From positions 2,046,001 to 2,110,000 of the forward strand of contig NZ_CP109592.1 of NCBI RefSeq assembly GCF_036250675.1: DNA of 64,000 nucleotides, read 5' to 3'. Under the pieces are notes generated by a model, which searched no databases, had not been told where the DNA came from, and saw nothing but the letters and a program-made list of their open reading frames with translations. Below, piece after piece: positions 44,347 to 59,013 of this stretch. Numbering within the stretch: the stretch's first letter is position 1; every line of letters begins with the position of its first letter. Position numbers and translations under genes: made by a program. Origin of the DNA: Streptomyces sp. NBC_01689. Its GTDB lineage: Bacteria; Actinomycetota; Actinomycetes; Streptomycetales; Streptomycetaceae.

Positions 44347-45369
44347 TCACCCGGCCGGTGATCCCCCTTCGGGGTCTCCGTCCTCCCCGCGGGCCGTCCG
44401 CAGCCACTCGTCGGCGGAGAGCGCGAGGAGCCGTCGTACGGCCCCGGCGTCGGGCAACGTTCCGTGGTCGCCGGTCACCCTGAGGGCGGAGACCGCCGTG
44501 ATGTGGCCGAGGCGCAGCGCGCCCGTCAGGGTCTCGTCGTGGAGCAGCCCGGCCAGGAACCCCGCGGCGAACGCGTCGCCCGCGCCGACCGCTTCGACCA
44601 CCGGCGTGCGCAGCGCCGGTACCACGACGGCGCCGGCCTCCCGGGAGAAAGCGGTGGCGAAGTCGCCGCCGTCCTTGACCACGACGATCCGCGGCTGCGG
44701 CAGCAACTCCCGTACGCCGTCTGCCGTGAGGCCGGCGCCCCACAGGTCCTGGGCCTCGTCCAGGCCGACGAACACGATGTCCGCGCGGTCCGCCAGGTCC
44801 CGCAGCACGGAGGGCGCGGTCCCGTCGTGCCACAGCGCGGGGCGGTGGTTGACGTCGAAGCTGACGGCGTACGGCCGTTCGCCGGGCGGCTTGCCGAGCG
44901 CGTGGCGCACCAGGTCCCGGCAGGACGGGGACAGCGCCGGGGTGATCCCGCTGACGTGCAGGAGGGACGCGGCGCGCACGGGTGCGGTGTCCAGCAGGCC
45001 GGGATCGAGGGCCGAGGCCGCGGACCCGGAACGGTAGTAATGGACGCGGGTCCCGTCGGGACGGGGGGACTTGAGGAGGAGCCCGGTGGGGCGGGCCGGG
45101 TCGGTGCGGACGTGGGTGACGTCGACTCCGGCGGCGGCGACGGTGGCCCGTACCCGCCGGCCGGGCGCGTCGTCACCGAGGGCGGAGAGCCACGCCACCG
45201 GAACGCCGTGGTCGGCGAGGTACATCGCGACGTTGGACTCGGCGCCCGCCACCGACAGGCGCAGGTGCTCGGCGTCCTCCAACGGGCCGACCGGGTCGGG
45301 GGCCAGGGCCGCCATCGTCTCCCCGACGCAGACGACGGGTCCGGGGTCGGGCCGCCACGGCATGGTCAT
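44347..45369 (-). CDS. PfkB-family 2-keto-3-deoxy-sugar-acid kinase
   Basis: ATG 45369 overlaps the lactonase stop (ATGA). The 340-residue ribokinase-fold enzyme shows the N-terminal motif AGAESNVAMYLADHG and C-terminal VGAGDAFAAGF with the catalytic Asp near residue 263. It resembles 2-keto-3-deoxygluconate kinases (KdgK). In this operon it should phosphorylate 2-keto-3-deoxygalactonate, the step done in E. coli by the unrelated DgoK. It is the last gene of the galactoside operon. Confidence 0.9.
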   Translation of the reverse strand: MTMPWRPDPGPVVCVGETMAALAPDPVGPLEDAEHLRLSVAGAESNVAMYLADHGVPVAWLSALGDDAPGRRVRATVAAAGVDVTHVRTDPARPTGLLLKSPRPDGTRVHYYRSGSAASALDPGLLDTAPVRAASLLHVSGITPALSPSCRDLVRHALGKPPGERPYAVSFDVNHRPALWHDGTAPSVLRDLADRADIVFVGLDEAQDLWGAGLTADGVRELLPQPRIVVVKDGGDFATAFSREAGAVVVPALRTPVVEAVGAGDAFAAGFLAGLLHDETLTGALRLGHITAVSALRVTGDHGTLPDAGAVRRLLALSADEWLRTARGEDGDPEGGSPAG

Positions 45370-46256
45370 GCGGGCCCTCCCGCGGGGACCGGAGCGGCGG
45401 CGTGGAGTCGGAACGCGGGCGTCGGCGGGCCCGGCACGTCCACGCGTACGGAGAAGACGGCGCCGTCCCCGGGACGCGGATCGGTGAGGCCCACGCGGGC
45501 GGTGGTGACGTGCAGGACGTCGTGCTCCAGGCACACTCCTGCGGGCTGCCTCGCGGGCAGGGCCAGGACGCGGTCGGGGGTGCCGTCGGCGAGGAAGCGG
45601 CGTACGGTGCCGGTCCCCCAGACCGCGGTCCACAGGGCGCCCTCGGCGTCGACGGTCATGCCGTCCGGGCTGCCGTCGTCCACCGTGGCGAAGACCTCGG
45701 GTGTGCCGAGAGCGCCGGTGTCCGGGTCGACCGGGTGGCGGCGGATCACGCCCCGGGCGCTGTCGGCGAGGTACATGACCGTGCCGTCCGGGGTGAAGGC
45801 GGGCCCGTTCGGGACGGTGATGCCGTCCAGGACCCGGACCACGGTGCCGTCGTGGTCGACCCGGTACAGCGAGCCGGCGTTCTCGTCCGCGTCGTAGCCC
45901 ATGCTGCCCGCCCAGAAACGGCCGGCGGGGTCGGCGACGGCGTCGTTCATCCGCGTCCGGACCGCCGCGCCGTCCTCGGGCCGGTCCAGCCAGGTGACCC
46001 GGCCGCCGGGCGTCAGCAGGCAGACGCCGGTGTCCGCGGCGGCGATCCAGGTACCGGGGCGCCCGGTCACCGGCGCCACCGCGCCCACCGGGAAGGGGAG
46101 TCGGGCGAGCGGTTCCAGGGCTCGGGCCGGGTCCGCCGGAGCCCTCAGGAGGCGGCCGGCGAGGAGGTCGACGAGGACGACCTCCTCCCCCGTCCAGCGG
46201 ATGCCTTCGCCGAGTTCCAGCCGGTCGGGACGGGCGACGGGTGCGGGTGTGTTCAT
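45366..46256 (-). CDS. SMP-30/gluconolactonase-family sugar lactonase
   Basis: The 296-residue six-bladed propeller has the metal ligands of SMP-30 lactonases: Glu in LGEGIRW, Asn in RMNDAVADPAGRFWAG, Asn in VPNGPAF and Asp in SPDGMTVD. It starts at 46256, overlapping the aldolase stop, and ends overlapping the kinase start. In context it hydrolyses D-galactono-lactone, made by the dehydrogenase, to D-galactonate. Confidence 0.9.
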   Translation of the reverse strand: MNTPAPVARPDRLELGEGIRWTGEEVVLVDLLAGRLLRAPADPARALEPLARLPFPVGAVAPVTGRPGTWIAAADTGVCLLTPGGRVTWLDRPEDGAAVRTRMNDAVADPAGRFWAGSMGYDADENAGSLYRVDHDGTVVRVLDGITVPNGPAFTPDGTVMYLADSARGVIRRHPVDPDTGALGTPEVFATVDDGSPDGMTVDAEGALWTAVWGTGTVRRFLADGTPDRVLALPARQPAGVCLEHDVLHVTTARVGLTDPRPGDGAVFSVRVDVPGPPTPAFRLHAAAPVPAGGPA

Positions 46257-46885
46257 CGTCCGGTCTCCTCCGCCATGACGCGGAAGGCGCGGGCCCGGTC
46301 GCGGAGCGCCGTCAGGCTGCCGCCGTCCGCGGCGTCGCCGACCAGGGGGGAGCCGACGCCGACGGCCGTGGCCCCGGCGGTGAGACAGGCGTGGGCGGCG
46401 GCCTCGTCGATCCCGCCGACGGGGACGAACGGCGCGTCGGGGAAGGGACCGCGCAGCGCCTTGAGGTAGTCCGCTCCGCCGAAGGGCGCGGCGGGGAAGA
46501 GTTTCAGCGCCTCGGCGCCCAGCGCGCGGGCGGCGATCACGTCGGTCGGGGTCAGCACCCCGGCGAGGACGGGCAGGCCGAGGTCCCGGGAGGCGCGGAC
46601 GCCGTCGCCTAGGCCGGGTGTCACCACGAAGGCGGCTCCCGCCCGGTGTGCGGCGTGGGCGTCGTCGGCGCTCAGGACCGTCCCGGCGCCCAGGAGGGCG
46701 TCGGGCCCGAGTGCGTGCCGGGCGCGCTCGATGACGGTGAGGGCGTCCGCTCCGCTCAGGGACACCTCGATGAGGTCGACGCCCTCCTCGGCGAGGGCCA
46801 GTACCGTGCGCAGCGCTGCGTCCGGGTCGCCTCCGCGCACGATGGCCAGCAGTCGACGGGCGGCCAGGGCGGCTTGCAGGTCCAC
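46253..46885 (-). CDS. KDPG/KDPGal-type aldolase
   Basis: The 210-residue class I aldolase starts at GTG 46885 with GAGGAG upstream. Signature residues are visible: LLAIVRGGDP, Glu in LIEVSLS, GAGTVLS, and the Schiff-base Lys in LKLFPAAPFGG near residue 127, then FVPVGGI. It splits 2-keto-3-deoxy-6-phosphogalactonate (or -gluconate) to pyruvate and glyceraldehyde-3-phosphate, the last step of the pathway. It is flanked by mutarotase and lactonase genes. Confidence 0.93.
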   Translation of the reverse strand: MDLQAALAARRLLAIVRGGDPDAALRTVLALAEEGVDLIEVSLSGADALTVIERARHALGPDALLGAGTVLSADDAHAAHRAGAAFVVTPGLGDGVRASRDLGLPVLAGVLTPTDVIAARALGAEALKLFPAAPFGGADYLKALRGPFPDAPFVPVGGIDEAAAHACLTAGATAVGVGSPLVGDAADGGSLTALRDRARAFRVMAEETGR

Positions 46886-46916
46886 GGTGGAGAACTCCTC
46901 TTCTCTGCGGGGGGGG

Positions 46917-47735
46917 TCAGGGGCAGCGGCAGGTGGTGCCGAGGGTGAGGCGCCAGCGCACCTCGCCGGAGGCGGGGACGCGGGCCGCGTCGTCCGGTCC
47001 CGCCTCGGCGAGGTCGAAGACGCGGCCGAGCATCGGCTCGACGCCGTTGCTGCGGTAGGGGGCGTGCGCGGGGAAACCGCCGAGGTTGCGCCACAGGGCG
47101 ACGGACATCGGCTGTTCCCCGGCGGTCAGGGCGAGATGGAGCCGGTCGGGCCCGTCGTGGACGCAGATCTGCCCGGCGTCGACGACGGCTCCCACGGCGG
47201 TGCCGTCGTCGGGGCCGATCCGCTGGAGCGGCACTCCGCACGGGTCGGGCCAGGTACCGGTGATCCACGGTGCGCCGTCCGGCCAGGGACGGTCGACCAG
47301 CGCGGCGGCCTCCGGGAACAGCCGGGTGGACGCCCCGTCGGGCAGGTGCAGTCCGGCGGCGGGTGACAGGTCGAGCAGGGCGTGCGCGGCCCAGACGAAG
47401 CGGTAGCCCGGCTCGGCGGTGAGGACGTAGTCGGCCTCGGCACCGCCGGGGGTCGCGCGGATCGTACGGCGGAGGGCGAAGTCGGCGCCCTGCACCGAGT
47501 CGGTGGCGCCCTCCCGGGTCCAGGGCCGGGACCAGACGTCCCCGTGGTCCGGGGTGCCGCGGACGGTGGGGAAGCACTCCTCCAGACCGCCCGCGTCCAC
47601 GAACTCCGCGCCGGGCCCCGCCTGTTGGCGCGCGGGGTCGGGGCGGTGCCAGAGCCATTCGCGGCCGGGTGACGCGAGGGAGGTCCAACGGCCGCCGTGG
47701 AGCGGGTCGGTGACGATGTCCAGGGGCATGCTCAC
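46917..47735 (-). CDS. Aldose 1-epimerase-like mutarotase
   Basis: The 272-residue protein starts at GTG 47735, overlapping the dehydratase stop by GTGA. It is a beta-sandwich of the galactose-mutarotase superfamily, shorter than classical GalM (about 340), with WLWHRPD, GGLEECFPTV and RNLGGFPAHAPYRSNGVEPM segments. Catalytic residues cannot be assigned with certainty. In the operon it would supply the anomer of galactose needed by the dehydrogenase. Confidence 0.8.
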   Translation of the reverse strand: MSMPLDIVTDPLHGGRWTSLASPGREWLWHRPDPARQQAGPGAEFVDAGGLEECFPTVRGTPDHGDVWSRPWTREGATDSVQGADFALRRTIRATPGGAEADYVLTAEPGYRFVWAAHALLDLSPAAGLHLPDGASTRLFPEAAALVDRPWPDGAPWITGTWPDPCGVPLQRIGPDDGTAVGAVVDAGQICVHDGPDRLHLALTAGEQPMSVALWRNLGGFPAHAPYRSNGVEPMLGRVFDLAEAGPDDAARVPASGEVRWRLTLGTTCRCP

Positions 47736-48877
47736 CACTCCGCGAAGGAGCCGTCGGGGTGCCGCCAGACCGGGTTGCGCCAGGCGTGGCCGGCGCGGTC
47801 GGCGGCCCGGACGGCCGCCTCGTCGACGGTGACGCCGAGGCCCGGTGCGTCCACGCGGGACGCGTGCCCGTCGACGAACCGGAAGGGTTCGGGGTCGACC
47901 ACGTAGGAGAGCAGGTCGGCGTCCTTGTTGTAGTGGATGCCCCTGCTCTGCTCCTGGATGAGGAAGTTGGGGGTGGCGAAGGCGACCTGGAGGCTGGCGG
48001 CGAGGGCGATCGGGCCGAGGGGGCAGTGCGGCGCGAGGTGCGCGCCGTAGGTCTCGGCGAGGGAGGCGATGCGGTGAACCTCGGAGATGCCGCCGGCGTG
48101 CGAGAGGTCGGGCTGGGCGACGGCGACCCCGGCAGTGAGCGGGGTGAGGAACTCGGCCCGGGAGTAGAGGCGTTCGCCGGTGGCCAGGGGCACCGGGCTC
48201 GCCTCGACGAGCCGGGGCAGCAGGTGGTTCTGTTCGGGGACGACGGGTTCCTCGACGAACAGCGGGTGCAGGGGCGCGAGTTCGTTGAGGACGCGGCGGG
48301 CGTTGGCGGCAGTGAAACGGCCGTGGAAGTCGACGGCGACGTCCCGGTCGGGCCCGAGGACGTCACGGGCCGCCGCCACCCGGGCGACGACGGCCGCGGT
48401 CTCGGCCATGGTGGCGGCCGGTCCGACCCGTCCGGCGCCGTTCATCTTGACGGCGGTGAAGCCCGCCTCCACCTGTTCGGTGATCTGTTCGGTGAGTTCG
48501 GCGGGTTCGTCACCGCCGACCCAGGCGTAGACCCGGACCCGGTCGCGCACGGGCCCGCCGAGCAGGGCGTGCACGGGCGCGCCGTAGGTCTTGCCCGCGA
48601 TGTCCCACAGCGCCTGGTCGAGTCCGGCGACGGCGCTGGACAGGACCGGGCCGCCCCGGTAGAAGCCGCCCTTGGTCAGGACCTGCCAGTGGTCCTGGAT
48701 GCGGAGCGGGTCCTGGCCGAGGAGGTATTCGGCGAGGACGTCGACGGCGGTCCGCACCAGTTCGGCGCGGCCCTCGACGACGGGTTCGCCCCAGCCGGTG
48801 ACGCCCTCGTCGGTCTCCACGCGGCAGAACAGCCAGCGCGGCGGTACGAGGAAGGTTTCGACGCGTGTGATCTTCAC
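47732..48877 (-). CDS. dgoD: D-galactonate dehydratase
   Basis: The 381-residue enolase-superfamily enzyme closely matches E. coli DgoD as I recall it, from MKITRVETFLVPPRWLF to the end WRNPVWRHPDGSFAEW. The metal and acid/base residues are in place: Asp and His in DFHGRF near residue 184, Glu in VEEPVVPEQ, Glu in ATGERLYS and His in PHCPLGPIALAA near 284. IHYNKDADLL is also typical. It converts D-galactonate to 2-keto-3-deoxygalactonate. It starts at ATG 48877, overlapping the regulator stop. Confidence 0.93.
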   Translation of the reverse strand: MKITRVETFLVPPRWLFCRVETDEGVTGWGEPVVEGRAELVRTAVDVLAEYLLGQDPLRIQDHWQVLTKGGFYRGGPVLSSAVAGLDQALWDIAGKTYGAPVHALLGGPVRDRVRVYAWVGGDEPAELTEQITEQVEAGFTAVKMNGAGRVGPAATMAETAAVVARVAAARDVLGPDRDVAVDFHGRFTAANARRVLNELAPLHPLFVEEPVVPEQNHLLPRLVEASPVPLATGERLYSRAEFLTPLTAGVAVAQPDLSHAGGISEVHRIASLAETYGAHLAPHCPLGPIALAASLQVAFATPNFLIQEQSRGIHYNKDADLLSYVVDPEPFRFVDGHASRVDAPGLGVTVDEAAVRAADRAGHAWRNPVWRHPDGSFAEW

Positions 48878-49614
48878 CGGGCACCGGTGCCTTTCGGTTC
48901 GTCGTCGGGTCCGCCGATCCGGTCCAGGTCGCGTCCGGCCTGGTCGAGCAGGGCGCGCATGGCCGCCTCGGCGGCCAGCGGGTCCCGGTCGCGTACGGCG
49001 TCCAGGACGGCGCGGTGGGCGGGTACGGGGTCCTCGCTGTGCGGGGCGCTGTGCACGATGCGGTCGCGGTGGGCGAGTCCCGACTCGATCACCACCTCCA
49101 TGCGCTCCAGGAGTTCGTTGTGGGTGGCGGCGAGCAGGGCTCGGTGGAAGGCGAGGTCGGACTCGACCGCGTGGGCGGCTCCGGTGCCGTCCTCCCCCAT
49201 CGCGGTCAGGGCGTCCTCCAGGGCGGCGAGGTCGGCGTCGGTGCGGCGTTCGGCGGCCAGCCGGACGGCGGCCGGTTCGACGATGGCACGGACCTCGGCG
49301 AGGTTGCGCAGCAGGCCGAGGTCGGCCTCCGCGGAGCCGGCGCCCTGGATCTGCCAGCGCAGCACGTCGGCGTCGAGCAGGTTCCAGTCGGAGCGGGCGC
49401 GCACGAACGTGCCGCGTTTCTGGCGGGCGTCGACCATGCCCTTGGCGGCGAGGACCTTGAGGGACTCACGCAGCGCGGTGAGGCTGACGTCCAGCTCACG
49501 CTGCAGCGCCACGAGGTCGAGCGTGGCCCCCTCGGGGATCTCGCCGCCGAGGATGCGGCGGGCGAGGAACTCCACGGTCTGACCGTGCACGCCGCGGCGG
49601 GCGTAGGGCGTCAT
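48874..49614 (-). CDS. GntR/FCD regulator, DgoR-like
   Basis: The 246-residue protein has a FadR-type winged helix (LALQRELDVSLTALRESLKV-like region, AAKGMVDARQKRGTFVRAR) and an FCD effector domain (metal-binding His in ESDLAFHRALLAA and PAHRAVLDAVRDRD). The linker WNLLDADVLRW is typical of sugar-acid GntR regulators such as DgoR. It lies inside the operon and overlaps the dgoD start, so it most likely senses galactonate and controls its own operon. Confidence 0.9.
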   Translation of the reverse strand: MTPYARRGVHGQTVEFLARRILGGEIPEGATLDLVALQRELDVSLTALRESLKVLAAKGMVDARQKRGTFVRARSDWNLLDADVLRWQIQGAGSAEADLGLLRNLAEVRAIVEPAAVRLAAERRTDADLAALEDALTAMGEDGTGAAHAVESDLAFHRALLAATHNELLERMEVVIESGLAHRDRIVHSAPHSEDPVPAHRAVLDAVRDRDPLAAEAAMRALLDQAGRDLDRIGGPDDEPKGTGAR

Positions 49615-49645
49615 GTCGTACAGCCTTTCGATGGTCGGGGTTCGG

Positions 49646-50419
49646 TCATGCGGAGGCCTTCAGGACGCTCCAGCCGCCGTCGACGAGGAGGTGGGACCCG
49701 GTGACGTAGGAGGCGTCGTCGGAGCCGAGGAAGGCGATGGCCGCGGCCACCTCCGCGGGGGTGCCGAAGCGGCGGGCCGCGGTCTCGGCGACGCTGCGCG
49801 CACGGTCCTCGGGCGGCACCCGGTCCCAGGCCGCGGTGAGGATCGGGCCGGGCAGGACGGCGTTGACGCGGACCTCGGGCCCGTACTCGACGGCGAGCTG
49901 GCCGCACAGGGAGAGCAGAGCGCCCTTGGACGCGGCGTAGGCGGGGTGTCCGGGGATGCCCTTGTGGGCGTGGACGGACGAGGTGAGGACGACCGCACCG
50001 CCCCGGGCCCGCAGGTCGGGCAGGACGGCCCGGAACCCGAGGAAGCCCCCCGTGAGGTTGACGTCGAGCTGGCGGCGCCAGGAGTCGAGGGAGAGCTCGT
50101 GGGCGGGGCGGACGTCGACGGTGTAGGCGTTGCTGACCAGGAGGTCGACCGGTCCGAAGGAGTGGGCGGCGTCGACGACGCGGCGCCAGTCGCCCTCGTC
50201 GGCGACGTCGGTCCGTACGAAGCGGGCCCGGCCGCCCTCTCGGGTGATCCGTTCCGCCTCGGCGCGGCCGCGCTCCTCGTCGATGTCGGCGAGCACGACG
50301 GCGGCTCCCTCCTGGGCGAGGCGGGCGGCGGTGGCGGCTCCGATGCCGGAGGCGGCCCCGGTGACCACGGCCGTGCGGCCGGTGTAGCGGGCACCGCCGC
50401 CTCGTACGGGCTGGTCCAT
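49646..50419 (-). CDS. SDR-family dehydrogenase, candidate D-galactose 1-dehydrogenase
   Basis: The 257-residue enzyme has TGAASGIG, an Asp after the second strand (VLADIDEERG) that favours NAD, Ser in TSSVHAHKG and the YAASK catalytic pair. The usual NNAG motif reads SNAYT. C-terminal GSDDASYVTGSHLLVDGGW is standard for classical SDRs. Its place between alpha-galactosidase and galactonate genes suggests it oxidises D-galactose to the lactone, the one step in the pathway with no other candidate. Family assignment is firm; substrate is inferred. Confidence 0.9.
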   Translation of the reverse strand: MDQPVRGGGARYTGRTAVVTGAASGIGAATAARLAQEGAAVVLADIDEERGRAEAERITREGGRARFVRTDVADEGDWRRVVDAAHSFGPVDLLVSNAYTVDVRPAHELSLDSWRRQLDVNLTGGFLGFRAVLPDLRARGGAVVLTSSVHAHKGIPGHPAYAASKGALLSLCGQLAVEYGPEVRVNAVLPGPILTAAWDRVPPEDRARSVAETAARRFGTPAEVAAAIAFLGSDDASYVTGSHLLVDGGWSVLKASA

Positions 50420-50484
50420 CGTGGGTCACGGCTCCTTCGGGGTCGGGCACACAGTGCGTGCCCATGGGGCGGGGTGGATCGAAC

Positions 50485-52590
50485 CTACGCCGGTGTGCGG
50501 GCCGGACGGCGGGTCAGCACGACCAGTTCGGCGTCGTGGCCGGCGGTCCAGGCGAACGGCAGCCCGTAGTGCAGGAGGTGGGCGCCGCCGTAGGTCGTAC
50601 CGGAGGCCTCGTCGTGGTAGCGGGCGTCCGGGTCGAGGCCGCGGGCGCGCAGCCGGGCGGGGCGGCCCGGCACCAGGGGGGCGCCGTCGAGGCGTCCGGT
50701 GCTGAGGGCGGCGACGACGGTCCGCCCGTCCGCGCCGTCGTACTGGACCCCGCAGGTGGCGTCGTCCGGGCTGCCGAGCAGGCGGGCCTCGCCGTGGTGG
50801 ATCACGTCGCGCACCTCCTTGTACCGGGCGATCCAGCCGGCCGCCTCGGCGCGTTGCTCCGGGGACCAGGTGCGCAGGTCGGCGCCGATGCCGAGGACAC
50901 CGCACATCGCGGTGACGAAGCGGAAGGCGAGGCTGCGCGGGCGGGGGTCGAAGACGCCGGGGGCGTCGGTGACCCAGGAGCTCATCACGTGCGGGGCGTG
51001 GGCGTGCAGGAAGCCGTACTGGATCGCGAGCCGGTCCAGGGGCGCGGTGTTGTCGCTGGGCCAGACGACGTCGGTGCGGGCGAGGGTCGTGTGGTCGACG
51101 CGGCCGCCGCCGCCCGCGCAGCCCTCGACGGTCACGTGGGGGTGGACGGTGCGCAGGTGATCGAGGACGCGCAGGTATCCGTGGACGTGTTCGGCGTCCA
51201 GGTCGAGGCGTTCCGCGGGCGTGGGGCCGGGCCGGCCGCGTTCGGTGGGCGGGCGGTTCATGTCCCACTTGAGGTAGTCGACCCGGTGGTCGGTGAGCAG
51301 CCGGTCGAGAGTGGCGATGACGAAGTCCTGGACGTCCACGCGCCCGAGGTCCAGCAGGAGCTGGTTGCGGACCAGGCGGGCGGGCCGGCCGTCGATCCGG
51401 TAGGCCCAGTCGGGGTGTTCGGCCAGCAGCCGGCTGCCGGGGCTGACGGCCTCGGGTTCGATCCACAGGCCGAAGTCCATGCCGAGCGCGCGGACGTCGT
51501 CGACGAACCGGTCGAAGCCGTCCGGGAAGGCGGCCGGGTCGGGGTACCAGTCACCGAGGCCCGCGGTGTCGTCGGCGCGGCCGGTGAACCAGCCGTCGTC
51601 GACGACGAACAGCTCGACGCCCATGTCGGCCGCGGACTTGGCGAGTTCGAGCTGTCCGGCCGCGTCGACGTCGAAGCCGGTCGCCTCCCACGAGTTGTAG
51701 AGGACCTTGCGGGGGCGGTGGAGCCGCTCTCCGGCGAGCCGGCGCTCGTAGCGGTGCCAGACGCGGGAGAGGCCGTCGAGGCCGTCCGCGCTGAACGCGC
51801 AGGCGAGGCGGGGGGTGGTGAGGGTGGTGCCGGGGGCGAGGAGGACGGCGCCCTCGTGGGGTACGCGTCCGGCGCGGACCCGGACGGCGCCGCCGGGTTC
51901 GGCCTCCGTGGTGATGTGCCAGTTTCCGGCCCACTCCAGGGCGAGGCCGTAGGCGGGGGCGTCGTCGGCGGCGAGGTCCTGGACGGCGAGCCAGGGCGCG
52001 TACGCGTGCCCGGGGGTGCCCTGGGTGCTGCCCATGGTGAACGTGCCCCGGGTGAGGGCGAGTCGGGTGTGCTGGAACTCCTGCGACCACTGTCCGGTGA
52101 GATAGGTGAGCCGGGCGCCGGAGGTCACCGGCACGTTGACGGCGCCGGAGTCGAAGCGCTCCAGGCGCAGTTCCTCCGGGCCGGTGCAGGTGTGTTCGGT
52201 CCAGCGGTGCAGGACGTCGGTGCCCGGTACGACGGCGTAGCACAGGGTGGTGCGCAGGCCGAGGAGTTCGTCGGTGAAGGTGAGCCGGAGGGTGCCGGCG
52301 CCCTGCTCGGCTCCGGTGAACTCCCAGCGGACGCCGCGTTCCTGTCCCGGGCGGCCGGCGATCAGGTCCGCGCCGGTGAAGGGCCGTTGTCCGTGCGGCA
52401 GGTACTCGGCGGGGGCGGCGTCGGCCGGGGTGACGAAGTGGGTGCGGTGCGACCAGTCGAGGGCGGAGGGTCCGTCCTCGGCGCCGTGCGGGCCCCAGGC
52501 GTCCAGTTCGGCCCAGGGGCCGTCCGGCGACAGCCGCACGGTGTAGCCGGTGTTCTCGGTGCGCAGTGTCCAGCGCTGGTACGACGTCAC
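50485..52590 (-). CDS. GH36 alpha-galactosidase, cytoplasmic
   Basis: GTG 52590 overlaps the permease stop (GTGA), giving 701 residues. There is no signal peptide. After an N-terminal beta-supersandwich the barrel shows YNSWEATGFDVD, FVVDDGWFTGR, the nucleophile Asp in DYLKWDMNR near residue 441 and the acid/base in VWPSDNTAPLDRL near 510; CAGGGGR also matches GH36. It cleaves alpha-galactosyl groups from imported raffinose-family or galactomannan fragments, releasing galactose for the oxidative pathway downstream. Confidence 0.95.
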   Translation of the reverse strand: MTSYQRWTLRTENTGYTVRLSPDGPWAELDAWGPHGAEDGPSALDWSHRTHFVTPADAAPAEYLPHGQRPFTGADLIAGRPGQERGVRWEFTGAEQGAGTLRLTFTDELLGLRTTLCYAVVPGTDVLHRWTEHTCTGPEELRLERFDSGAVNVPVTSGARLTYLTGQWSQEFQHTRLALTRGTFTMGSTQGTPGHAYAPWLAVQDLAADDAPAYGLALEWAGNWHITTEAEPGGAVRVRAGRVPHEGAVLLAPGTTLTTPRLACAFSADGLDGLSRVWHRYERRLAGERLHRPRKVLYNSWEATGFDVDAAGQLELAKSAADMGVELFVVDDGWFTGRADDTAGLGDWYPDPAAFPDGFDRFVDDVRALGMDFGLWIEPEAVSPGSRLLAEHPDWAYRIDGRPARLVRNQLLLDLGRVDVQDFVIATLDRLLTDHRVDYLKWDMNRPPTERGRPGPTPAERLDLDAEHVHGYLRVLDHLRTVHPHVTVEGCAGGGGRVDHTTLARTDVVWPSDNTAPLDRLAIQYGFLHAHAPHVMSSWVTDAPGVFDPRPRSLAFRFVTAMCGVLGIGADLRTWSPEQRAEAAGWIARYKEVRDVIHHGEARLLGSPDDATCGVQYDGADGRTVVAALSTGRLDGAPLVPGRPARLRARGLDPDARYHDEASGTTYGGAHLLHYGLPFAWTAGHDAELVVLTRRPARTPA

Positions 52591-53444
52591 TTCACGGCTC
52601 CGAGGTTGAGTCCGGCCACGAAGTGCCGCTGGAAACGGAGGAAGACGGCCACCGTCGGGGCGGCGGCGATGACGGAGCCGGCGGCGATCACGTTCCACAT
52701 GGACACGTACTGTCCCTGAAGTCCGATGAGGGCCGCGGTGATGGGCATCCGTGTGTCGGTGCGCAGGACGGTGATCGCCCACAGCAGGTCGTTGAAGATC
52801 CAGGTGAAGGACAGGGCGCTGAGCGCGGCGAGGGCGGGGCGGGTGAGGGGGAGGATGATGCGCCAGAAGATCTGCCAGGGGCCGGCGCCGTCCACGACCG
52901 CCGCCTGCTGGATCTCGACGGGGATGGACCGCATGAAGCCGTGCAGCACGAAGACGTAGAAGCCGACGCCGAAGCCGATCTGCACGCCGATCAGCGCGGG
53001 CAGGGTGTCGTACACCCCCAGGATCTCGCTGAGTTTGGAGACCGGGATGAGCAGGATCTGCGGGGGCAGCAGGTTGCCGCCCAGCATGAGCAGGAGCAGG
53101 GTGCGGCGGAAGGGCATCTCGTAGCGGCTGAGCCCGAACGCGGCCATCGCGGCGAGCGCGAGGGTCACCACGACGCAGGGGACCGTCACGAGCAGGCTGT
53201 TGACGAGGGCGCGCTGCTGGCCGCCGTCGACCCAGGCCTGCCGGAAGTTGCCGAGGGTGAAGGACCGGGGCCAACTGCCCAGTCCGTGGGCGGCGATGTC
53301 GTCGAAGGACCGCAGGCTGGTGACCAGGACCAGGACGATCGGCAGCAGCCAGAGCAGGGACAGCGCCCCGGCGCCGGCGTGGAATCCGGCGGTGGACAGG
53401 CGGCGCCTGCGCAGGGCCGCATCGGAGGTCTGCGGAGTCGTCAT
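52587..53444 (-). CDS. ABC galactoside transporter permease (MalG type)
   Basis: The 285-residue protein starts at ATG 53444, sharing one base with the previous stop (TGATG). It has six hydrophobic segments, beginning LSLLWLLPIVLVLVTSL, and the EAA loop IQQAAVVDGAGPWQIFWRI, where the first Glu is replaced by Gln. With the neighbouring permease it forms the inner-membrane channel. The ATPase would be supplied in trans. Confidence 0.92.
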   Translation of the reverse strand: MTTPQTSDAALRRRRLSTAGFHAGAGALSLLWLLPIVLVLVTSLRSFDDIAAHGLGSWPRSFTLGNFRQAWVDGGQQRALVNSLLVTVPCVVVTLALAAMAAFGLSRYEMPFRRTLLLLMLGGNLLPPQILLIPVSKLSEILGVYDTLPALIGVQIGFGVGFYVFVLHGFMRSIPVEIQQAAVVDGAGPWQIFWRIILPLTRPALAALSALSFTWIFNDLLWAITVLRTDTRMPITAALIGLQGQYVSMWNVIAAGSVIAAAPTVAVFLRFQRHFVAGLNLGAVK

Positions 53445-54382
53445 CAGTCCGCCTCCCGGAAGGCGCGCACGAGGTAGGAGGCGATCACACCGAAGGCCAG
53501 CACGAAGATGACGACGGCCAGGGCGGAGCCGTAACCGAGACGCAGCGACTGGAAGGCGGTGGAGTACATGTAGGTGCTCAGCAGTTCCGAGGAGTGGTAG
53601 GGGCCACCGCGGGTGAGGGACCACACCACGTCGAAGGAGCGCAGCGAGTCGATGACGATGACGGACAGGACCACCGCGTTGACGCTGCGGAGCTGAGGGA
53701 GCGTCACATGACGGAAGGCCTGCCAGCGTCCGGCGCCGTCGACCTTGGCCGCCTCGTAGAGGGCGGGGTCGATGCCCTTGAGGCCGGCCAGGTAGAGCAC
53801 CATGACGTAGCCGATCTGGCGCCACAGGGCGGGCACGATGACGGCGTACAGGGCGGTGTCCTGATCGGCGAGCCAGGCATGGCGCAGACTGCCGAGGCCG
53901 ACCGACTGGAGGAGCTGGTTGAGGACGCCGTCGGGCTGGTAGATCGCCTGCCAGACGAGGGCGGTGGCGACCAGCGAGAACACCACCGGCAGGAACAGGG
54001 CGGCGCGGTAGAAGCCCACGCCGCGGCGTTCCTGCTGGAGCAGCAGCGCGGTGGCGAGGCCGAGCAGCGCGGACAGTCCGCCGAAGAGCACGAGCCACAG
54101 CACGGTGTCGACGGCCGCGGTGCGGAACACGTCGTCGTGCGCCATCTCGCGGAAGTTGGCGAGGCCGACGAAGCGCGGTGCGGAGACGCCGTCCCAGCTG
54201 GTGAGCGCGAGATAGAAGCCCTGCAGGGCGGGCCAGAAGACCCAGACGGCCTCGGCGAGCAGCGGGACGAGGACGAACGCCAGGACGAGCGGAGGGGTGC
54301 GGCGCGGGCCCCCGGCCCTTCGGCCGCGGGGCGGCGTCGGGACCGGGGTCGTCCTGCGGGCGTCCGTGGTGAGGACGGCCAC
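53444..54382 (-). CDS. ABC galactoside transporter permease (MalF type)
   Basis: I place the start at GTG 54382, just behind the binding-protein stop, with GGGGAG upstream; 312 residues. A Pro/Arg-rich N-terminus precedes six membrane segments (LVLAFVLVPLLAEAVWVFW first) and the EAA motif YEAAKVDGAGRWQAFRHV. It pairs with the MalG-type permease encoded next. Confidence 0.92.
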   Translation of the reverse strand: MAVLTTDARRTTPVPTPPRGRRAGGPRRTPPLVLAFVLVPLLAEAVWVFWPALQGFYLALTSWDGVSAPRFVGLANFREMAHDDVFRTAAVDTVLWLVLFGGLSALLGLATALLLQQERRGVGFYRAALFLPVVFSLVATALVWQAIYQPDGVLNQLLQSVGLGSLRHAWLADQDTALYAVIVPALWRQIGYVMVLYLAGLKGIDPALYEAAKVDGAGRWQAFRHVTLPQLRSVNAVVLSVIVIDSLRSFDVVWSLTRGGPYHSSELLSTYMYSTAFQSLRLGYGSALAVVIFVLAFGVIASYLVRAFREAD

Positions 54383-54383
54383 G

Positions 54384-55664
54384 TCACGCTCCCCAGATCT
54401 TCTGGGCGTCACGCTGCCAGTCCGTCAGGATGCTGTTGATCTCCTTGGGCTTGGCGATGAACTTGGTCAGGGCGGTGTCGGCGGTGGGCTGCAGGGCGTC
54501 GCTGGAGTCGCGGTTGAAGAACTGGGTGACCTCGGCGGCCTCCGCGACGTGCTTGCGGCCCTTGATCACCAGCGGGGTGCCGGTGTCCTTGGCGTCGGGG
54601 TGACAGGGCAGCGCGGTACCGGAGGAGCCCTTGAGGTAGATCTCCTGGGCCTCGGCGCCGGCCAGGAACCGCAGCAGGTCGAAGACCTGGTCGCGGTGGC
54701 CGGAGCGGGCGCTGGCGAAGTACCCGTCGGTGGGCGCCTCTTCGGCGAGCGGGATCTTGGGGTCGATGACGGGGAAGCGGAAGAAGTCGATGTCGTCCAG
54801 GGCGTCCTTGGGTGCGGCGTCGGCGAAGAACGTGCCGATCAGCATCATGCCCGAACGGCCGTTGAGCAGCGCGGTGGTGGCGTCCTGGAAGGCGACGGCG
54901 GTGCCGCTGGGGTCGAAGTACGGGAGGACCTCCTTCCAGCGGTCGAAGACCTTGTGGACCTCGGGGTCGTCGAAGCGGTGCTTGCCGGCGAGGAGTTCAC
55001 GGTGGTACTGGGCGCCGTTGATGCGGATGTCGAGGTAGTCGAACCAGGCGGAGGCGACCCAGGCGGTGTTGCCGCCCGCGCCGAGGCCGATCGGCGCGAC
55101 GCCCTTGGACTTGAGCTTGTCGCACAGGTCGAGGAAGCCGTCCCAGTCGGTGGGCGGGGTCACGCCCCACTTCGCGAAGTTGGACTTGCGGTAGAACATG
55201 CCCCACCAGTAGTAGGTGGTCGGCACGAAGACCTTCTTGCCGCTGCTGGAGGTGCACAGCGTGTGCAGGGCCTTGGAGTAGCGCTTCAGGTCGGGCGAGT
55301 CCCACACCTCGTCGAGCCCGAGCAGGAGGTTCTTGCGGGCGTAGGCGTCCGCGACCGAGCCGGGGTACCAGGTGTAGACGTCCGGCGGGTTGGCGGAGGT
55401 CAGGTAGGTCGGCAGCTGGGTCCGGAACGTCTCGGCGGCGACCGTGTTGAGGTCGACGCTCCCCTTCTTCTTGTAGGCGGCGACCAGGTCCTGCATCGCG
55501 GCCTTGGCCTGGGGGGCGGAGAGGTTGGACTGGAGGGAGACCGCGCCCTTGGAGGAGGTCTTGGACGAGGACGTGGAGGTCACGCAGCCGCTGAGCAGGG
55601 CCGCGGTTCCGGCGGCGCCGGCTCCGGCGAGGAAGCGCCGGCGACTGGTCTGTGAGTGGTTCAT
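54384..55664 (-). CDS. Galactoside-binding lipoprotein with twin-arginine signal
   Basis: ATG 55664 follows AGGAG and gives 426 residues. The signal SRRRFLAGAGAAGTAALLSGC combines a twin-arginine motif with a lipobox, so the protein is probably exported folded and then lipidated. The mature part is a family-1 solute-binding protein (AYKKKGSVDLNTV, NPPDVYTWYPGS, APTDGYFASAR). It should capture alpha-galactosides at the cell surface and pass them to the permeases. It follows the secreted GH27 enzyme by 35 bp. Confidence 0.93.
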   Translation of the reverse strand: MNHSQTSRRRFLAGAGAAGTAALLSGCVTSTSSSKTSSKGAVSLQSNLSAPQAKAAMQDLVAAYKKKGSVDLNTVAAETFRTQLPTYLTSANPPDVYTWYPGSVADAYARKNLLLGLDEVWDSPDLKRYSKALHTLCTSSSGKKVFVPTTYYWWGMFYRKSNFAKWGVTPPTDWDGFLDLCDKLKSKGVAPIGLGAGGNTAWVASAWFDYLDIRINGAQYHRELLAGKHRFDDPEVHKVFDRWKEVLPYFDPSGTAVAFQDATTALLNGRSGMMLIGTFFADAAPKDALDDIDFFRFPVIDPKIPLAEEAPTDGYFASARSGHRDQVFDLLRFLAGAEAQEIYLKGSSGTALPCHPDAKDTGTPLVIKGRKHVAEAAEVTQFFNRDSSDALQPTADTALTKFIAKPKEINSILTDWQRDAQKIWGA

Positions 55665-55699
55665 GGAAGGCTCCTGCGAGGTCACGACGGTTGGCTGGT

Positions 55700-57859
55700 C
55701 TACTGTTCGAACGCGGTGCGGTGCACGGTGCCGTCGACTCCGCGGTACACCGCGTCGACCGTCCCGTCGGCGCCCGCGGCGGCTCCGAGGGCTCCGTCGA
55801 ACGCGGCGCTGGGGAACTCCTGCCGCTTCGACCAGCCCTGCCAGGAGCCCGCCCGGTACCGCTGCTGCCAGAGGGTGTAGTCACCGGCGCGCGCGTACAG
55901 GAGCACCTGGTCGCCGACGGTGACGAGGGTGGGGCTGCCGCTGACCGTGCCGCCGAGTGCGCTCCAGTCCGTCCACCGGCCCTGGGCGTCCCGCGAGCGG
56001 GTCCAGATGTCGTCCGACGCGGTCCGTACGGCGATGTGCACCCGGCCGGCGGAGTCGACGGCCGCGGAGGGCCTGCCGTACGTCACGCGGCCGTCGGGGG
56101 TGCCGAGCGAGGTCCAGCCGGTGGCCGGGCCGCGCTGCGTGATGCGGCCTTCGCCGTCGCGGGCGACGAGCGTCCAGTGGCCGGGGTCGGTGAACGCCAC
56201 CGACGGCGCGTCCGCGAGCTGTCCGCCCAGGCTCTGCCAGTCACCCCAGTGTCCGCCCGTGGAGACGCGCCGGTAGGCACGGGAGTCGGCGCCGCGCACG
56301 AAGACGTCGACGCGGCCGTCGGCGGAGGCGTGGACGGCGGGCTGTCCGAGGATGCCGCCCTTCACCGGACCGCCGAGGTCCCGGCTGCGCGGGGTGCCGT
56401 GGCCGGTGTCCGTGTGCTGGACCAGCGTGCCGTGGGGCCCGCGCAGGAAGGTCTGCACGGTGTCGCCGGAGCGGGCGACGGCGGGGTCGGAGGTGGTCCG
56501 CTCGCCCAGGCCGGTGCCGGGCAGCGCGTCGGCGCCGGTGAGCTTGAGGAACGCGGTTCCGTGGGCGGGCACTTCGACCGTGTAGGAGTCGGTGTGGACG
56601 CCGCGGTCGGCGCGGGCGCGCAGGTCGCGCACGGCGACGGGACCGCCGAGGGCGGTGTCGGCGAAGCGTACGGTGCGGCGGGCCGCCTTGTCGGAGCGGT
56701 TGAGGAGGACGACCGCGCGCCGGCCACGTCCCGAGAGGACCTTGCTGTACACGTCACCGGTGTCGTCGGAGGCGACCCGCACACCCTGGACGCCCAGGCG
56801 GTCCTGGTCGACGCGGATGATCTCCGGGTTGCGGAGGGTGGCCAGCATCGAGGAGTTCAGGGTGCGCGGGTCGGAGCCGAGGACGAGCGGGGATGCCATC
56901 TCGGCCCACATCACGAACTGGGTGGTGGACTCCTCCTCGGTCAGTTCCGGTGTCCCGTCGGACATCGGGCGCATGGGGATGAGGTAGTCGGGGTCGTTCC
57001 AGTGGCCGGAGCCCTGCGCCTCGGGGTGCCAGGCGTTGGCGTCCATGTTGCGCAGGATGTTGGGCCACTCCCCCGCGGTCGGCGTGCCCCAGGCGATGTC
57101 CGTGCCGGTCCGCCAGGAGTCGGCGATGGCCGGGGCGTAGACGAACGTGTTGTGGGCGTCCTGCTCGGGGGTGTGCGGCAGGCCCCAGTCGTCGGTGAGC
57201 GGGTTGCACAGGTTCAGCAGCATCCGGCGGCCGGACTTCGCGACCGCGTCGCTGAGTTCCTTGTACGCGGGGCCCGGATCGAGCTTCGCGCCGATGCCGC
57301 AGAGGAAGTCGACCTTGATGGCGTCGATCTTCCAGCCGGCGAACTGCCGTGCGTCGTCGTCGTAGTGGCCGCGGCTGCCCAGGCCGCAGCTCTTCCCGCC
57401 GTCGTAGGTGCCGGCGTCGGTGTAGATGCCCGCGCGCAGGCCCCGCTGGTGCAGGTACGAGACGAGGGCGGGGATGCCGGAGGGGAAACGCTCGGGGTTG
57501 GCGACCAGCCGGCCCTGCGCGTCACGGGGGTTGTCGGCCTGCCAGCCGCCGTCGAGCCAGACGATGTCGTAGCCGCTGTCCCGGAGACCGCTGCCGACCA
57601 GCTTGTCGGCGACGGAGCGGACCTCCTTCTCGGTGGGCGCGCCCAGGCCGTAGTAGGTGTTCCAGCCCATGTAGGGCGTCGGGGCGAGTCCGCTGTCGTA
57701 CGAGGCCGCCGCGCCGGGGTCCCGCGGGACGGGCGCGGCGGCGGACGCGGAGGCGGTGGGGGCCGTGGTCGCCGCGGCGACCACCATGGCGGCGGTGGCG
57801 ACACTACGGCGGGCGAGGCGGCGGGGCCCGGGCCTCGGTACGGGTGCTTGCGAAGTCAC
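55700..57859 (-). CDS. Secreted GH27 alpha-galactosidase with C-terminal propeller
   Basis: GTG 57859 with GGGAG upstream gives 719 residues. The N-terminus has a signal peptide (ARRSVATAAMVVAAATT). The GH27 barrel shows MGWNTYYGLG near residue 66, WLDGGWQ, the nucleophile Asp in IKVDFLCGIG near 181 and the acid/base in HWNDPDYLI near 286. A beta-sandwich follows (to about 440). The last 270 residues are not part of standard GH27 enzymes: they repeat W-SLGG and FVRGADSRAY strands, like PLL/tectonin-type lectin propellers. The enzyme removes alpha-galactose outside the cell; the propeller may anchor it to glycans. It is first in the operon. Confidence 0.94.
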   Translation of the reverse strand: MTSQAPVPRPGPRRLARRSVATAAMVVAAATTAPTASASAAAPVPRDPGAAASYDSGLAPTPYMGWNTYYGLGAPTEKEVRSVADKLVGSGLRDSGYDIVWLDGGWQADNPRDAQGRLVANPERFPSGIPALVSYLHQRGLRAGIYTDAGTYDGGKSCGLGSRGHYDDDARQFAGWKIDAIKVDFLCGIGAKLDPGPAYKELSDAVAKSGRRMLLNLCNPLTDDWGLPHTPEQDAHNTFVYAPAIADSWRTGTDIAWGTPTAGEWPNILRNMDANAWHPEAQGSGHWNDPDYLIPMRPMSDGTPELTEEESTTQFVMWAEMASPLVLGSDPRTLNSSMLATLRNPEIIRVDQDRLGVQGVRVASDDTGDVYSKVLSGRGRRAVVLLNRSDKAARRTVRFADTALGGPVAVRDLRARADRGVHTDSYTVEVPAHGTAFLKLTGADALPGTGLGERTTSDPAVARSGDTVQTFLRGPHGTLVQHTDTGHGTPRSRDLGGPVKGGILGQPAVHASADGRVDVFVRGADSRAYRRVSTGGHWGDWQSLGGQLADAPSVAFTDPGHWTLVARDGEGRITQRGPATGWTSLGTPDGRVTYGRPSAAVDSAGRVHIAVRTASDDIWTRSRDAQGRWTDWSALGGTVSGSPTLVTVGDQVLLYARAGDYTLWQQRYRAGSWQGWSKRQEFPSAAFDGALGAAAGADGTVDAVYRGVDGTVHRTAFEQ

Positions 57860-58464
57860 GTGCCACTCCCGTGGGTTGGGAAGCAGTAGGAGCGTGACGC
57901 GGGCCGCACGGGGCCGGAGACCTCGGCGTCACGGCGACGACTCTGGCCCGAGGCCGAAATCTTGTCAATATTAATTCCTAATTTAATAGAAGCCGGGTTC
58001 TGTCATCTGCCGGAAACCTTGACAGGGCGAACGTGTCCGGGCAGTGTTCGGCAGCGTCCTCCCGGGCGGCGGCACCGTCGCCCCGCCCCTTGGGCCGGAC
58101 ACGTCCTTCTCCCGACATCCCTGACAGGAGGCGTGATTCGTGCCGGATCGGGCCTCCTTCCCCCGCACGCGGGCAGGCCCTCCCCGCCGGCCCGGCCGGC
58201 CGGGGCATCCCGTGCGCGCGGGCCGGAGACGCGGGGGCGGGCGCGCGACCGCACCGGCCGTGACGGAGGACGTACCGCACAGATCCGGCCGTCTCGCGCG
58301 GTGCCGAACCTGCCGCCGGGCAGGCCCGGTCGGAGGTGTGCGGCCACGTCGTCACGGGTGACGGCCGGTGTCCGGCGGAGGCCCGTGACGAAGAGGCCGG
58401 CCGGGTGCGTCCCGCCCCGGAACGAACGGGACGGGCGGCGGCCGGGTTGCCTATATTCCTGTCC
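57860..58464. other. 605-bp divergent intergenic region
   Basis: Left: the AT-rich operon promoter. Middle: a plus-strand TTGACA at 58019-58024 and an inverted repeat acgtgtccgg (58031-58040) / ccggacacgt (58095-58104). Right: TATATT at 58452-58457 just before the acetyltransferase start. Frames crossing the region include rare TTA codons or no ribosome site, so no gene is called. Confidence 0.5.
57940..57991 (-). promoter_or_regulatory. AT-rich promoter of the galactoside operon
   Basis: Minus strand TTGACA (57968-57963) and CAGAGT (57945-57940) are spaced by 17 bp; transcription would start near 57933. Directly upstream lies a 35-bp tract (57957-57991) with only six G/C, exceptional here, containing the dyad TATTAA/TTAATA (57969-57974, 57983-57988). 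It could be an UP element or operator. Confidence 0.6.
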
Positions 58465-59013
58465 ATGCCCGAGCTGCAGCCGCTCCGTCCGGACCACGCC
58501 CCCGCGCTGCTCGCCTTCGAGCGGGAGAACCGCGCGTACTTCGCCGCGTCCGTCCCCGACCGCGGCGACGACTACTTCGCCCGGTTCGACGAACGGCTCC
58601 GTGCGCTGCTCGCCGAGCAGGCGGCCGGTGTCTGCCGCTTCCACGTCCTGGTCGGCGACGCGGGCGAGGTGCTGGGCCGGGTCAACCTCGTGGACCTGGC
58701 GGACGGCGCTGCCGACCTCGGGTACCGGATCGCGGAACGTGCCGCGGGCCGGGGGCTGGCCACCAGGGCCGTGGGCGAGGTGTGCGACCTTGCCGCGCGC
58801 AGCTACGGGCTGAGCGTCCTGCGTGCCGCGACCACGCTCGACAACACGGCGTCCCGCGCCGTCCTGGCCCGCTCGGGGTTCGCCGTCGTCGGCCGGACAC
58901 GGCTCTCCGGCCGCCCCGGCCTGACCTGTCGCCGCGACCTGCCCGGTCTCCCCGGGCCCCGCGGCCTCGGTGACGCCGGCGCTCCGTCCGTCCCTCCCGG
59001 GACCGGCCGCTGA
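58465..59013 (+). CDS. GNAT-family N-acetyltransferase
   Basis: ATG 58465 gives 182 residues. The GNAT fold of the RimJ/RimL type is clear: LQPLRPDHAPALLAFERENR, then VLGRVNLVDLADGAADLGYR, the acetyl-CoA loop RAAGRGLATRAVGEV and the final helix DNTASRAVLARSGFAVVG. It may acetylate a protein N-terminus, an amine or an antibiotic. TATATT lies 7 bp upstream of the start codon, so the mRNA may be leaderless. A Pro/Gly-rich tail closes the protein. Confidence 0.9.
   Translation: MPELQPLRPDHAPALLAFERENRAYFAASVPDRGDDYFARFDERLRALLAEQAAGVCRFHVLVGDAGEVLGRVNLVDLADGAADLGYRIAERAAGRGLATRAVGEVCDLAARSYGLSVLRAATTLDNTASRAVLARSGFAVVGRTRLSGRPGLTCRRDLPGLPGPRGLGDAGAPSVPPGTGR

Follow-up and report, generated by a model that had tools for sequence, protein, structure and literature searches.

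How does a Streptomyces cell use the galactose held in galactosides, when the genus is usually taken to consume this sugar through the Leloir enzymes? The question is raised by a 64,000-nucleotide stretch of the Streptomyces sp. NBC_01689 genome (contig NZ_CP109592.1, positions 2,046,001 to 2,110,000; hereafter the window, whose positions are used throughout), in which twelve minus-strand genes running from 57859 to 44347 join a secreted glycoside hydrolase (GH) and a sugar importer to enzymes of sugar-acid catabolism. Overall, we believe it very probable that this operon supports life on galactosides by oxidising galactose, beside an intact Leloir pathway. The first-pass annotation of the window had gone further and supposed that the operon bypasses the Leloir enzymes. 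That part has to be given up: the same 9.96-Mb genome carries galT, a galE-like epimerase gene (PF01370) and galK as an intact group at C1:5747.9-5751.2 kb, so the oxidative route is parallel to the Leloir route and not its replacement, and a galactokinase signature is present in all 31 operon genomes tested.

The description of twelve same-strand genes of named families is borne out, all twelve being on the minus strand and of the families claimed. That they mostly overlap by 1-4 bp is only just right: six of the 11 junctions are such overlaps, and the remaining five are gaps of 1, 31, 31, 35 and 65 bp. In the order of the operon, the genes are:

55700..57859, minus strand: secreted GH27 enzyme, 719 amino acids (aa), a GH27 barrel with a C-terminal beta-propeller and Gly at the key specificity position
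54384..55664, minus strand: sugar-binding protein of an ATP-binding cassette (ABC) importer (SBP_bac_1; twin-arginine signal; lipobox by eye)
53444..54382, minus strand: ABC permease 1 (PF00528)
52587..53444, minus strand: ABC permease 2 (PF00528)
50485..52590, minus strand: GH36 enzyme, 701 aa (PF02065, PF16875, PF16874)
49646..50419, minus strand: short-chain dehydrogenase/reductase (SDR), proposed nicotinamide adenine dinucleotide (NAD)-linked D-galactose 1-dehydrogenase (PF13561, NF005559)
48874..49614, minus strand: GntR/FadR (FCD) regulator, DgoR-like (PF00392, PF07729)
47732..48877, minus strand: DgoD, D-galactonate dehydratase (NF010624)
46917..47735, minus strand: divergent protein of aldose-1-epimerase (mutarotase) fold (AlphaFold2 model and Foldseek)
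46253..46885, minus strand: aldolase of the 2-keto-3-deoxy-6-phosphogluconate/-galactonate (KDPG/KDPGal) family, with a KDPGal-type Val (PF01081)
45366..46256, minus strand: SMP-30/gluconolactonase-family lactonase (PF08450, PDB sequence matches)
44347..45369, minus strand: PfkB sugar kinase, proposed 2-keto-3-deoxygalactonate (KDGal) kinase (PF00294)

For the binding protein, an ATG start is favoured over the GTG at 55685, judged by the ribosome-binding site. The GH36 enzyme, in which we see no signal peptide by eye and which is taken as cytoplasmic, carries the motifs VDDGWF and LKWDMNR. An ABC ATPase is not among the twelve genes; in Streptomyces such importers commonly draw on a shared one.

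The operon is more than a chance assembly, because its gene set is kept across relatives. The search of actinobacterial genomes for this gene order that the first-pass annotation proposed was run on named relatives, that is, those among the matches listed from a scan seeded on the window's DgoD, which favours close relatives; the nearest among them are Streptomyces. Out of 80 loci fetched, 70 are at least 19.8 kb long, and with thresholds of E<=1e-8 and at least 40% identity, 29 of these 70 hold all twelve genes and 40 hold the eleven besides the lactonase. In Micromonospora the two halves of the operon are adjacent and divergently oriented. Reduced forms are also found: GntR, DgoD, aldolase and PfkB alone are retained in 3 of the 70, and only SDR and DgoD in four Streptomyces loci (L045, L049, L059, L069).

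Oxidative enzymes and their probable shared sugar

DgoD scores 578.5 bits against the equivalog NF010624 (cut-off 311) and shares 52% identity with its E. coli namesake; by sequence it is firmly identified as a D-galactonate dehydratase. The further parts of the oxidative catabolism first claimed, namely kinase, aldolase, lactonase and DgoR-like regulator, are likewise present by family. Counting the SDR and DgoD, the operon has, by family, a candidate for every step of a De Ley-Doudoroff route. In the aldolase, a Val aligns with V154 of E. coli DgoA, where Eda has T161, a position that, according to PMC4915726, affects the choice between galacto and gluco substrates; Val is found in 65 of 67 aligned aldolases (window and actinobacterial), the two with Thr being the most distant relatives (40% and 43%). 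The residue thus favours KDPGal over KDPG as the likely substrate. Kinase and lactonase are assigned putative roles by family only; the closest PDB sequence to the kinase is the 2-keto-3-deoxygluconate (KDG) kinase 1v19, and it matches the bifunctional KDG/KDGal kinase models of NCBIfam below their cut-off. The protein at 46917..47735 has no family match above cut-off (best PF01263, E=0.012; none in NCBIfam). Its AlphaFold2 model, with a mean predicted local distance difference test (pLDDT) score of 88, retrieves aldose-1-epimerase PDB structures in Foldseek, including the YeaD and GalM mutarotases (best E 4.9e-10), and we assign it a galactose-mutarotase fold on the strength of that model.

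The step that would feed this pathway with galactose is assigned to the SDR, which we propose, mainly from genomic context, to be an NAD-linked D-galactose 1-dehydrogenase. It scores 226.8 bits against NF005559, a glucose-1-dehydrogenase subfamily model with a cut-off of 215, and shows by eye both the YxxxK motif and an acidic residue after strand 2. DgoD at 79% identity or more occurs in 71 of 392 genomes (listed rows counted). Among the 31 of these 71 that were tested, 29 encode the SDR, in all 29 within 1 kb of DgoD, and the two that lack it (G255 and G354) have a locus that looks eroded. The SDR was found in none of 30 genomes chosen for lacking a close DgoD (no match in 20 of them, a weak one in 10). 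Ten further genomes with a divergent DgoD all have an SDR relative (51-74%), beside DgoD in 3.

The strongest argument for the pathway is that the same module stands beside both alpha-type glycosidases and beta-galactosidase-type families. DgoD paralogues (71-72%) in genomes G292, G253, G065 and G179 are accompanied by SDR, GntR, aldolase, PfkB and SGL homologues, and the glycosidases near them are GH2 with a binding protein in G292 (L162), GH42 and GH2 with a binding protein in G253 (L163), and GH35 in G065 (L164); in G179 a GH35 gene, with binding-protein and permease homologues, lies in the neighbouring stretch L165, which carries the same variant operator as the others. Because the module adjoins alpha-type glycosidases here and beta-galactosidase-type ones elsewhere, D-galactose is the simplest common product, and it is most likely the shared sugar. 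Oxidative use of D-galactose, as first proposed, is thus supported by the linkage of SDR to DgoD and by reuse of the module. The variant operator, AATTATGAATAyATCTTGAC, is seen with GH2, GH42 or GH35 genes in L162, L163, L164, L165 and L166.

A candidate operator and its proposed regulator

The region upstream of the GH27 gene offers a candidate control element:

57970..57988, minus strand: AT-rich operator-like palindrome TATTAAATTAGGAATTAAT, proposed GntR site, conserved in relatives
57940..57968, minus strand: proposed promoter, TTGACA, 17-bp spacer, CAGAGT, from our reading of the upstream region

The palindrome TATTAAATTAGGAATTAAT lies against the TTGACA box; the CAGAGT box reads CACAGT in many relatives (by eye). 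The pattern of the palindrome has a single match in the window, where 0 are expected, and the window has no copy before the binding-protein gene. Of the 36 named loci whose GH27 is at least 70% identical, 34 show the site upstream of the catalytic domain at a distance of no more than 700 bp; a close binding-protein gene occurs in 39 named loci, and in 33 of these an operator-like site stands near the start of that gene. A scan of 71 genomes, allowing at most one mismatch and with the reversed pattern as control, located the operator in 29 of 31 operon genomes (all except G007 and G255) and in 5 of the 10 whose DgoD is divergent, including G069, which has a variant alone, far from DgoD; it was found in none of 30 genomes without a close DgoD, and the reversed pattern in none of the 71. 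A conserved variant site, AAATACTAATAATGTTTGAC, lies away from the DgoD gene in G096, G165, G055, G384 and G069; at the single place read (L167) no related gene was seen. The operon copies at L169 (G354), L170 (G255) and L171 (G007) look eroded, with genes missing or partial, and their operator is present with a mismatch in G354 and was not found in G255 and G007.

The regulator combines winged helix-turn-helix and FCD domains (PF00392 and PF07729) within a dgo neighbourhood and, across 222 aa, shares 34% identity with DgoR of E. coli, in keeping with the DgoR-like label it had been given. We infer that this GntR protein controls the operon by contacting the palindrome in response to a pathway effector. 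Across the 70 long loci, the motif accompanies 41 of 44 with a GntR of at least 70% identity, 2 of 19 below 70% and none of the 7 without GntR, classes that are confounded by phylogeny. Binding by another regulator, for instance a global or ROK-type one, is unlikely, and has some points in its favour: the palindrome is unlike the TGTACTACA-like repeats that the dgo promoter of E. coli displays, and L063, L068 and L085 have a close GntR without the palindrome. At the same time, in L043, L055, L067 and L077, which have no operon GH27, the palindrome stands upstream of the GntR or SDR gene instead, and it is gone from the four loci in which GntR is gone but DgoD and SDR stay (L045, L049, L059, L069), both of which argue for the operon's own GntR.

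The oxidative genes could be a galactonate (sugar-acid) operon that merely adjoins an independent alpha-galactoside operon; such a galactonate core would predict the 3 loci of GntR, DgoD, aldolase and PfkB alone, and would accommodate the operator-like sites near the binding-protein start. We consider this highly improbable, however, as the junctions are tight, SDR and mutarotase lie within the block, a sugar-acid transporter is absent among the twelve genes, both promoters have the same operator, and in Micromonospora the divergent halves are still adjacent.

A single operon under GntR control may also be coupled to a second locus. The home genome has only two sites with at most one mismatch to the operator pattern, and the second (C1:9509103-9509122) lies 160 bp before the gene of a further secreted GH27 (C1:9506846-9508942; L127:4844-6943), which is Gly-type and has an NPCBM domain in place of the propeller. 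Close orthologues of this enzyme (83-100%) are encoded by 6 of the 31 operon genomes and by none of 20 others. Five of these 6 have the operator 160-163 bp ahead of the gene and oriented as the gene is; G027, the sixth, has two sites of opposite orientation, with the gene at least 237 bp beyond them. The two secreted GH27 types look like mutual replacements: in 5 of the 6 genomes the dgo locus has no listed GH27 of the operon type, and both types are present in the home genome alone.

Further upstream of the operon, on the plus strand, are genes for a GNAT acetyltransferase (58465-59010) and a PAS/GAF/SpoIIE phosphatase with a HATPase domain (59098-61200), for which no link to the operon was seen.

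The secreted GH27 enzymes

The first-pass annotation called the secreted enzyme an alpha-galactosidase. The GH27 barrel and catalytic Asp pair are indeed present; the label itself is uncertain, because the key Asp is replaced by Gly. At this position characterised alpha-galactosidases have Asp, beta-L-arabinopyranosidases have Glu or Ile, and two fungal GH27 enzymes carry Cys (PMC4598101), so that the Gly fits neither main class. It is found in all 48 operon-linked GH27s with coverage of this position (the window's included, with Micromonospora and Microbispora among them) and in both of the second-site type examined. It is not a habit of the genus, since the home genome encodes further GH27s, among them a DDCW enzyme, which has the usual motif, and a DAGW enzyme. 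In the operon enzyme the C-terminal half (56500-55700) is a propeller resembling fucose-binding lectins (PLL, AAL, AFL). Mutants of another GH27 with Ala or Cys at the key position weakly cleaved both chromogenic galactosides and arabinosides (PMC4598101), and therefore Gly-type enzymes may yet have ordinary alpha-galactosidase activity. Tentatively, and at somewhat less than even chances, the Asp loss and the lectin-like propeller of the operon enzyme suggest that they form a separate specificity class, acting on substituted or chain-internal alpha-galactosyl residues and releasing oligosaccharides for the importer and GH36 enzyme, not free galactose.

It is here that a different sugar has to be considered. 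The operon might serve L-arabinopyranosides, or another galactose-shaped sugar freed by GH27, with the oxidative enzymes acting on L-arabinonate: L-arabinose and D-galactose have the same configuration at C2-C4, the PDB sequence nearest to this GH27, whose specificity Asp is replaced, is an S. avermitilis beta-L-arabinopyranosidase, and the sole NCBIfam match of the GH36 enzyme is a beta-L-arabinopyranosidase model (101 against a cut-off of 1100). Yet known arabinopyranosidases have Glu or Ile where this GH27 has Gly, a hexose acid is what DgoD and the KDPGal-type Val indicate, the paralogous loci have GH42, GH35 or GH2 genes instead, and a phosphorylated five-carbon acid would yield glycolaldehyde phosphate, a poor end product. 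We regard this reading as very improbable.

Oxidation of D-galactose is itself weighed down by several observations. The SDR family is generic, with 234 NCBIfam models matched, no characterised galactose dehydrogenase was established as the SDR's nearest relative, and its best relative is not beside the divergent DgoD in 7 of 10 genomes. The KDPGal aldolase model NF006600 scores 136 against a cut-off of 207 (the KDPG aldolase models of NCBIfam are also under theirs), the kinase falls outside the DgoK family, and the lactonase is absent from 11 otherwise complete loci among the 70. To these we add the Gly of the operon GH27 where alpha-galactosidases have Asp, the three loci that lack the motif despite a close GntR, and the phylogenetic confounding noted above.

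The proposed pathway and its known counterparts

The general pathway can be outlined, with the substrate of each enzyme proposed on sequence-level evidence: genes, families, gene order, co-occurrence, operator conservation, and the aldolase and GH27 residues. Consider a cell that meets a galactose-containing glycan. The secreted GH27 would trim it, the oligosaccharide product would enter via the ABC importer, and the cytoplasmic GH36 would free D-galactose. The mutarotase-fold protein would then provide the right anomer, which the SDR would oxidise to galactonolactone. GntR would sense a pathway intermediate, probably galactonate, and act through the TAAATTAGnAATTAAT-like palindrome beside the -35 box, and it may also control the second GH27 elsewhere in the genome.

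Mycobacterial galactonate catabolism was reportedly described by Szumilo in 1981. Oxidative galactose loci are already known in kind. Those predicted in Rhodobacteraceae (PMC5507952) likewise have De Ley-Doudoroff enzymes, a cytoplasmic alpha-galactosidase and a CUT1 ABC importer; they have an IclR-family regulator, whereas the Streptomyces operon has GntR, a secreted GH27 and a second putative GH27 target. In the haloarchaeon H. lacusprofundi (PMC3102087) a comparable grouping places DgoD near a gene related to KDG kinase and near an aldolase, a beta-galactosidase and a probable alpha-galactosidase; that system is archaeal, and the portion of the text covered does not describe an SDR-GntR-importer operon. 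The dgo operon of E. coli K-12 (L172) has in common DgoD, a KDPGal-type aldolase and the GntR-type DgoR, but is for galactonate only, with a DgoK kinase and a symporter and without galactose oxidation or a glycosidase. Among actinobacteria, Arthrobacter arilaitensis also has dgo genes, described in PMC2991359 as a four-gene sugar-acid cluster attributed to acquisition from Gram-negative bacteria, with no galactoside part there. Within Streptomyces, PMC9706016 describes KDGal formed from anhydrogalactose in S. coelicolor, and in Streptomyces sp. SirexAA-E the protein SACTE_1895, annotated as galactonate dehydratase, is listed as intracellular (PMC12772271). In the literature searched, which left subscription papers mostly outside and does not establish priority, we found no description of the operon in Streptomyces; as far as that literature goes, the actinomycete version, the operator, the second GH27 target and the Gly-type GH27s appear new.

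The Gly-type GH27s have a key specificity residue outside the classes described in PMC4598101, and a candidate operator and a putative two-locus regulon come with the proposed oxidative route, which would give reduced cofactor and pyruvate directly. If true, a conserved and separately regulated oxidative route from galactosides to pyruvate would change metabolic models of antibiotic-producing Streptomyces.

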